64,000 nucleotides of DNA from Chloroflexaceae bacterium (GTDB lineage: Bacteria > Chloroflexota > Chloroflexia > Chloroflexales > Chloroflexaceae), in NCBI GenBank assembly GCA_028282325.1, contig JANQID010000055.1, positions 1-64,000 on the forward strand, given 5' to 3'. Below, piece after piece: positions 63,159 to 64,000 of the stretch (the stretch's first letter is position 1; each line of letters opens with the position of its first letter). Made by a program: the position numbers and the translations under genes. The notes under the pieces were generated by a model. That model was not told the DNA's origin and did no database searches. It saw only the letters and a program-made list of their open reading frames with translations.

Positions 63159-63749
63159 TCAGTCGCGCGTTCTGCGCATCTCATCGAGGATGCCGAGCAA
63201 CTCTTCGGCCGGCGGCGGGGTGAAGACGGGTGAAAACGGCGCGTACCAGCGCCAACGAATCACGCCAGCTTCATCGAGAATGAATGTCCCCGGCAGCGGT
63301 ACGCCGAAACCTGATCCCATGCCATAGGCATAGAATATCGACCACGATGGGTCGCTGAAGATCGGATACGGCGCATGCAGGAGTTCGGCGACAAAGCTAG
63401 TCATCTCCAGGTCGGTGCTGCTGACCACAAGCAGCTTGACGCCACGCTTTTCGAACTCATGATGGGCTTCTCGCAAACCTTCCAGGTGCGGTGCGCAGTG
63501 TGGTCAGAAGAAACGGTCACTGACGATGCGTGTCAGATTCAGTACTGTCGGTTGTCCGCGTAGGTTGCTCAGACGCAGCGTTTGCCCGTACTCGACTTGC
63601 TCTGTGCCGTCGGCATTGATGAAGAACCGCGCGTAGGGAAGTTCAAAGTCGGGTGCGAGTTCACCTACCTCCGGCACATTACTCGGTCCGCGTGGTCGGA
63701 TAAATTCACTGCGCCACTGGGCGGTCATCGGAAGGATGGGTCGGGACAT
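63159..63749 (-). CDS. Redoxin (AhpC/TSA-like), candidate selenoprotein with in-frame UGA
   Basis: Read through one TGA, this is a 196-residue thioredoxin-fold protein: GELAPDFELP and an N-terminal strand, NLRGQPTVLNLTRIVSDRFF, then TGA at codon 82 (63504-63506), then PHCAPHLEGL, KRGVKLLVVSSTD and LPGTFILDEAGVIRW. In this family the TGA position is the first Cys of a CxxC active site, so the frame reads UPHC if UGA is selenocysteine. A hairpin at 63472-63490 begins about 14 nt after the UGA and has a loop starting GG, as expected of a bacterial SECIS. A strong GAGGAGG precedes the ATG. Without Sec, it is a two-piece pseudogene. sel genes are not in the window. Confidence 0.7.
63472..63490 (-). 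promoter_or_regulatory. Candidate bacterial SECIS hairpin
   Basis: On the minus strand, CGCACCT pairs with AGGTTTGCG, with two bulged T residues, around a three-base loop GGA. Twenty nucleotides separate the UGA from the first loop base. Bacterial SECIS elements have a short stem-loop 16-37 nt from the UGA with a G early in the apical loop, so distance and loop agree. Folding was done by eye. Confidence 0.5.
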
Positions 63750-63759
63750 CGCTGCCTCC

Positions 63760-64000
63760 TCATACAGTTACGGCTTCTTGTGCGCATACGCGCTTGAGCC
63801 GCTTCATTTGCTCACGTGCATCCCATTTCATAAACGGCTCGACAGTAAGCGGCCAGATCGCGCCGAGTCCGGGAGTGCGCAACTCGTATTCAAGCCGGTT
63901 CTGAATTATCGTCTGCTTTGCGTTGTCGGGGTTAGGGAACCAATGCCATGCGTCGAATCCTTCCCAGAAGCCGTTATAGGCCCAGAGAATCAACCCTGGT
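63760..64000 (-). CDS. SRPBCC-like protein, C-terminal part (cut by window end)
   Basis: The frame is open to the window end and encodes about 79 residues, with GFWEGFDAWHWFPNPDNAKQ, then TIIQNRLEYELRTPGLG and a C-terminal MKRLKRVCAQ. This resembles the last strands and long helix of SRPBCC (polyketide cyclase/START-like) ligand-binding proteins. Its stop overlaps the redoxin ribosome-binding site, ten bases from the ATG, so the two are likely co-transcribed. The assignment is tentative because the N-terminal part is missing. Confidence 0.5.
   Translation of the reverse strand, partial: PGLILWAYNGFWEGFDAWHWFPNPDNAKQTIIQNRLEYELRTPGLGAIWPLTVEPFMKWDAREQMKRLKRVCAQEAVTV

Follow-up and report, generated by a model that had tools for sequence, protein, structure and literature searches.

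A candidate UxxC redoxin selenoprotein gene with a conserved in-frame UGA codon in a Chloroflexaceae bacterium

It is almost certain that a redoxin gene on the minus strand of a Chloroflexaceae contig encodes a peroxiredoxin-fold thiol/selenol oxidoreductase, presumably cytoplasmic, in which an internal UGA is read as selenocysteine (Sec) through SelB under the guidance of a hairpin, to give a Sec82-Pro-His-Cys85 site. The gene lies near the end of the window, the whole stretch of 64,000 nucleotides that was analysed. The argument is built from sequence and combines the Sec machinery of the genome, a conserved UGA, a hairpin that is both conserved and constrained, selection on the read-through product and replacement of the residue by Cys. 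The actual insertion of Sec, the cytoplasmic location, the substrate and the reductant are inferred.

The gene (63159..63749, minus strand) begins with an ATG at 63747-63749, carries one internal TGA at 63504-63506 and ends with a TGA at 63159-63161. The first-pass annotation had described two minus-strand frames, each one half of a redoxin, joined by the single internal TGA. Translation with TGA as U indeed yields an AhpC/TSA redoxin of 196 amino acids. This product matches PF00578 (AhpC-TSA) over residues 28-166, a range that spans residue 82, with an E-value of 9.6e-23 and 80.9 bits against a curated cut-off of 26. PF08534 (Redoxin) is also matched across the TGA, with a lower score (E 5.7e-16), and an N-terminal extension of approximately 25 residues precedes the domain. 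The sequence around the TGA reads as a continuous redoxin, RFF-U-PHCAPHL, as had been described, and the TGA supplies the first residue of a U/CxxC motif. The second residue of the motif, Cys85, is encoded by a TGC at 63495..63497 that is invariant in alignment A2, and U82 and C85 are the sole Sec and Cys residues of the protein. The ribosome binding site is intact, as was also proposed: a Shine–Dalgarno AGGAGG (63755..63760, minus strand) stands just upstream of the ATG. It is overlapped by the stop codon, again a TGA, of the upstream gene, which encodes a Polyketide_cyc2/SRPBCC family protein of 151 amino acids (63760..64000, minus strand; PF10604, E 3.4e-9) and runs past the window edge. 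Outside genus g9, most relatives also have the SRPBCC-type gene beside the redoxin. In several relatives an MFS gene is located downstream of the redoxin.

A homologue search covering 150 relatives returned sequences of 61-72% identity that were confined to the same family. No further close homologue was present in a sample of 400 genomes of the phylum, and a scan of the genome contig collection gave only one relative, with 30% identity, in Legionella. Within these searches, the clade was confined to one Chloroflexota family. A TGA at the same residue is found in 27 family genomes, this one included, within the motif RFF-U-P[HN]C[AY]P[HQ]L (RLF replaces RFF in one genome). The site reads UPHC or UPNC in these 27 genomes and CPNC in two. 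It is the two close homologues without a TGA that carry Cys at this position, which agrees with the proposal that the TGA occupies the place of the leading Cys in a CxxC motif.

Stops that interrupt a conserved domain usually signal decay, and the SECIS stem of this genome is weak; both would fit a pseudogene, or a TGC or TGT misread as TGA in sequencing. Such an error is ruled out by the identical TGA in 26 other genomes, and the intact copies contain no other internal stop. In the pairs tested, dN is far below dS both upstream and downstream of the TGA, which indicates that purifying selection also acts on the downstream half. A conserved TGA combined with low dN/dS refutes decay, as the first-pass annotation had held, and leaves the pseudogene or error with a vanishingly small probability. 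In bacteria, the decoding of Sec competes with termination. The UGA could on this ground be regulatory, with a truncated product of 81 amino acids as the main output and read-through as a selenium-dependent switch. This is highly unlikely, as the truncated product contains no cysteine and ends before the active site, whereas the part after the UGA is strongly conserved in the family.

The presence of selA, selB, selD and tRNA-Sec had been named as a check on Sec decoding, and all four are found in the genome (4.6 Mb in 140 contigs, 99.98% complete). The tRNA-Sec has the anticodon UCA, and the profile matches reach 540 bits for selA, 351 bits for selB and 373 bits for selD. The selD gene itself (L018, C133) has an in-frame TGA in its GCAGUAAKMG motif (GCAG-TGA-AAKMG), making it a selenoprotein gene candidate in its own right; the genome therefore appears to use Sec elsewhere. 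If an ordinary tRNA for Trp, Cys or Arg read the UGA, or if the codon were reassigned throughout the genome, no Sec would be involved and the downstream frame would likewise be preserved. Against this, the redoxin and the gene upstream both end in TGA, so that UGA is not reassigned, and the genome holds the full Sec machinery. Furthermore, the two close homologues lacking the TGA carry nothing but Cys there, synonymous change in the hairpin is constrained, and the TGA form is absent from family genomes without any selA match. Taken with these observations, an ordinary reading of the codon is very improbable, and decoding as Sec is preferred. Across the 41 family genomes, selA exceeds the cut-off in 34, and 26 of these contain the TGA gene; it occurs in 0 of the 6 without any selA match (Fisher p 0.0008, a value that ignores kinship). 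The 41st genome (G030), a fragmented assembly of 9.3 Mb, carries the TGA gene, and its selD also contains an in-frame TGA, but neither selA nor tRNA-Sec was found over the cut-off. Each computational refutation named beforehand was tested and none held, so the claim that this gene encodes Sec is supported.

A bacterial SECIS-like stem-loop is predicted within the coding sequence at 63471..63491 (minus strand). It had been placed at 63472-63490, with the spacing and loop rule of bacterial SECIS elements. The position was correct to within a base or so and the rule was borne out; the structure is, however, unremarkable in the own sequence taken alone. It consists of a 5′ arm CCGCACC (63485-63491), a loop TGGAA (63480-63484) and a 3′ arm GG-TT-TGCGA, in which 63478-63479 and 63471-63475 pair with the 5′ arm around a TT bulge at 63476-63477. 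The loop follows the UGA at a distance of 19-20 nt and has a G in its first two positions, while the published bacterial model (PMC13188914 Fig. 2) allows 16-37 nt between UGA and apical loop. Loops across the set are TGGAA or GGA and fit the same model. Its upper stem of 4-16 bp accommodates the 7 consensus pairs and the 2-nt bulge observed. With regard to energy, the model sets a limit of -7.5 kcal/mol; the own stem alone reaches -5.7 kcal/mol, the least stable of the set, against -9 to -16 in relatives (all -9.0 or lower). This weakness arises because an A replaces G at the stem base: the outermost pair, here C-A, is broken in this genome alone. A longer stretch of the own sequence folds at -9.1 kcal/mol, partly with other pairs. 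Compared with synonymous recodings, the energy of the own hairpin is not significant, as 70% of the recodings fold as well or better, and no SECIS family of Rfam matched here at permissive thresholds.

The case for the hairpin is made by its conservation across relatives and not by the folding energy of the own sequence. The consensus fold after the TGA is CCGCAxC-TGGAy-Gz-(2 nt)-TGCGG, with 7 pairs predicted on 26 sequences, five of them invariant. Pair 21-29 is G-C in some sequences and C-G in others, a compensatory change, and genus g9 together with L036 has a shifted, continuous stem instead. As positions x and z fall inside codons, the swap from G-C to C-G alters two amino acids in step: His is found with Gly, and Gln with Ala. 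The swap tracks one main split of the tree and thus counts as one event, not many. In the whole gene, synonymous conservation peaks at codons +4 to +11 counted from the TGA, where several codons are nearly frozen (CCG 27/27, CTG 27/27, TTG 26/27, CGG 26/27). The stem is lost in the Cys homologues.

The AlphaFold model, computed with an alignment, has a pLDDT of 88.5. The nearest solved structures are peroxiredoxins, with Z-scores of about 21 (AhpE 20.7, Prx1 21.6). When the sequence is aligned with AhpE, the peroxidatic Cys corresponds to Cys85 and the Thr of TxxC to Sec82, and the Prx proline is missing. This points to a thioredoxin-like UxxC site on a peroxiredoxin fold. For the synthesis of such an enzyme, SelB and Sec-tRNA(Sec) would decode the UGA at 63504-63506 as Sec, guided by the stem-loop approximately 20 nt downstream, and the terminal TGA would work as an ordinary stop. 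The selenolate of Sec82 would then attack a peroxide or disulfide substrate, Cys85 would resolve the intermediate as a selenenylsulfide, and the enzyme would be reset by a reductant of the thioredoxin type.

UxxC redoxins were already known among bacterial selenoproteins, as the first-pass annotation noted. Prx-like UxxC selenoproteins with PF00578 have appeared in catalogues since 2005, beginning with the Sargasso Sea study (PMC1088965), and were listed again later (PMC2398784, PMC9312934, PMC13188914). Compared by description, these thiol:disulfide oxidoreductases are alike in the AhpC/TSA domain, in a CxxC motif whose first Cys is replaced by Sec and in a hairpin just after the UGA. The present clade differs in that relatives above 60% identity occur only in one Chloroflexota family, and in its N-terminal extension. 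The redoxin family selenoproteins (PF08534, UxxC) of Table 1 in PMC13188914, also compared by description, share the matched domain and the UxxC motif, whereas the present protein scores lower for PF08534 than for PF00578. Sec-peroxiredoxins (TxxU) and AhpE-type peroxiredoxins share the fold; in the present protein the Sec precedes the column of the peroxidatic Cys by three residues. An assignment to the Sec-peroxiredoxins (PxxxTxxU) was rejected, with Sec at the Thr column and Cys85 at the peroxidatic one. The best NCBIfam match around the UxxC site is the SelL-related redox protein model NF040769, and it too was rejected, since its 39.3 bits fall short of the cut-off of 120. With this protein, every NCBIfam model stays below its own threshold.

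The UxxC Prx-like kind is known; the present clade may be unnamed. Three Chloroflexi selenoproteins, in 3 families, have been reported (PMC1794560), a tally that may or may not include this one. Literature searches on Chloroflexus or Chloroflexi selenoproteins turned up nothing on this gene. With it, Chloroflexota gain a well-supported selenoprotein candidate; the selenoproteome reviews searched scarcely mention the phylum. Since the standard code splits the gene into two fragments, it is easily lost in annotation. At a greater distance, many redoxins of about 30% identity in other Chloroflexota carry one TGA, located at UPxC in all three that were checked (L051, L052 and L066). This suggests, at the level of sequence, a wider UxxC family in Chloroflexota. 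The assembly that contains L051 (G050, 86% complete) has no selA match.

A broader proposal can be held with middling confidence: that these genes form a clade of UxxC redoxin selenoproteins that is as yet unnamed and specific to one family, in Chloroflexaceae-like bacteria, that the SECIS hairpin determines part of the protein sequence, with the His/Gln and Gly/Ala residues switching together, and that one genus shows the successive steps of the change from Sec to Cys. The steps would run from Sec only, through a tandem pair of Sec and Cys copies in the absence of selD, to Cys only with an orphan tRNA-Sec. The two close homologues with TGC for TGA, one in G021 and one in G038, form one clade (100/100) nested inside the Sec clade of g9, which gives the direction as Sec to Cys. 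Two g9 genomes (G029 and G033) have a Sec copy and the Sec machinery. The tandem arrangement is seen in G021 (L060:6948-8165), where the Cys copy is without the hairpin. This genome, a draft 99% complete, has selA, selB and tRNA-Sec, with no selD over the cut-off. Such a genus-level series provides a natural system for studying the order of Sec loss in a bacterium. In the complete, single-contig genome G038, the redoxin occurs as the Cys copy only, and selA, selB and selD were not found over the cut-off. This genome retains a tRNA-Sec gene (UCA; L071:1940-2033) that still looks intact and is likely a remnant of a Sec trait that was lost recently.
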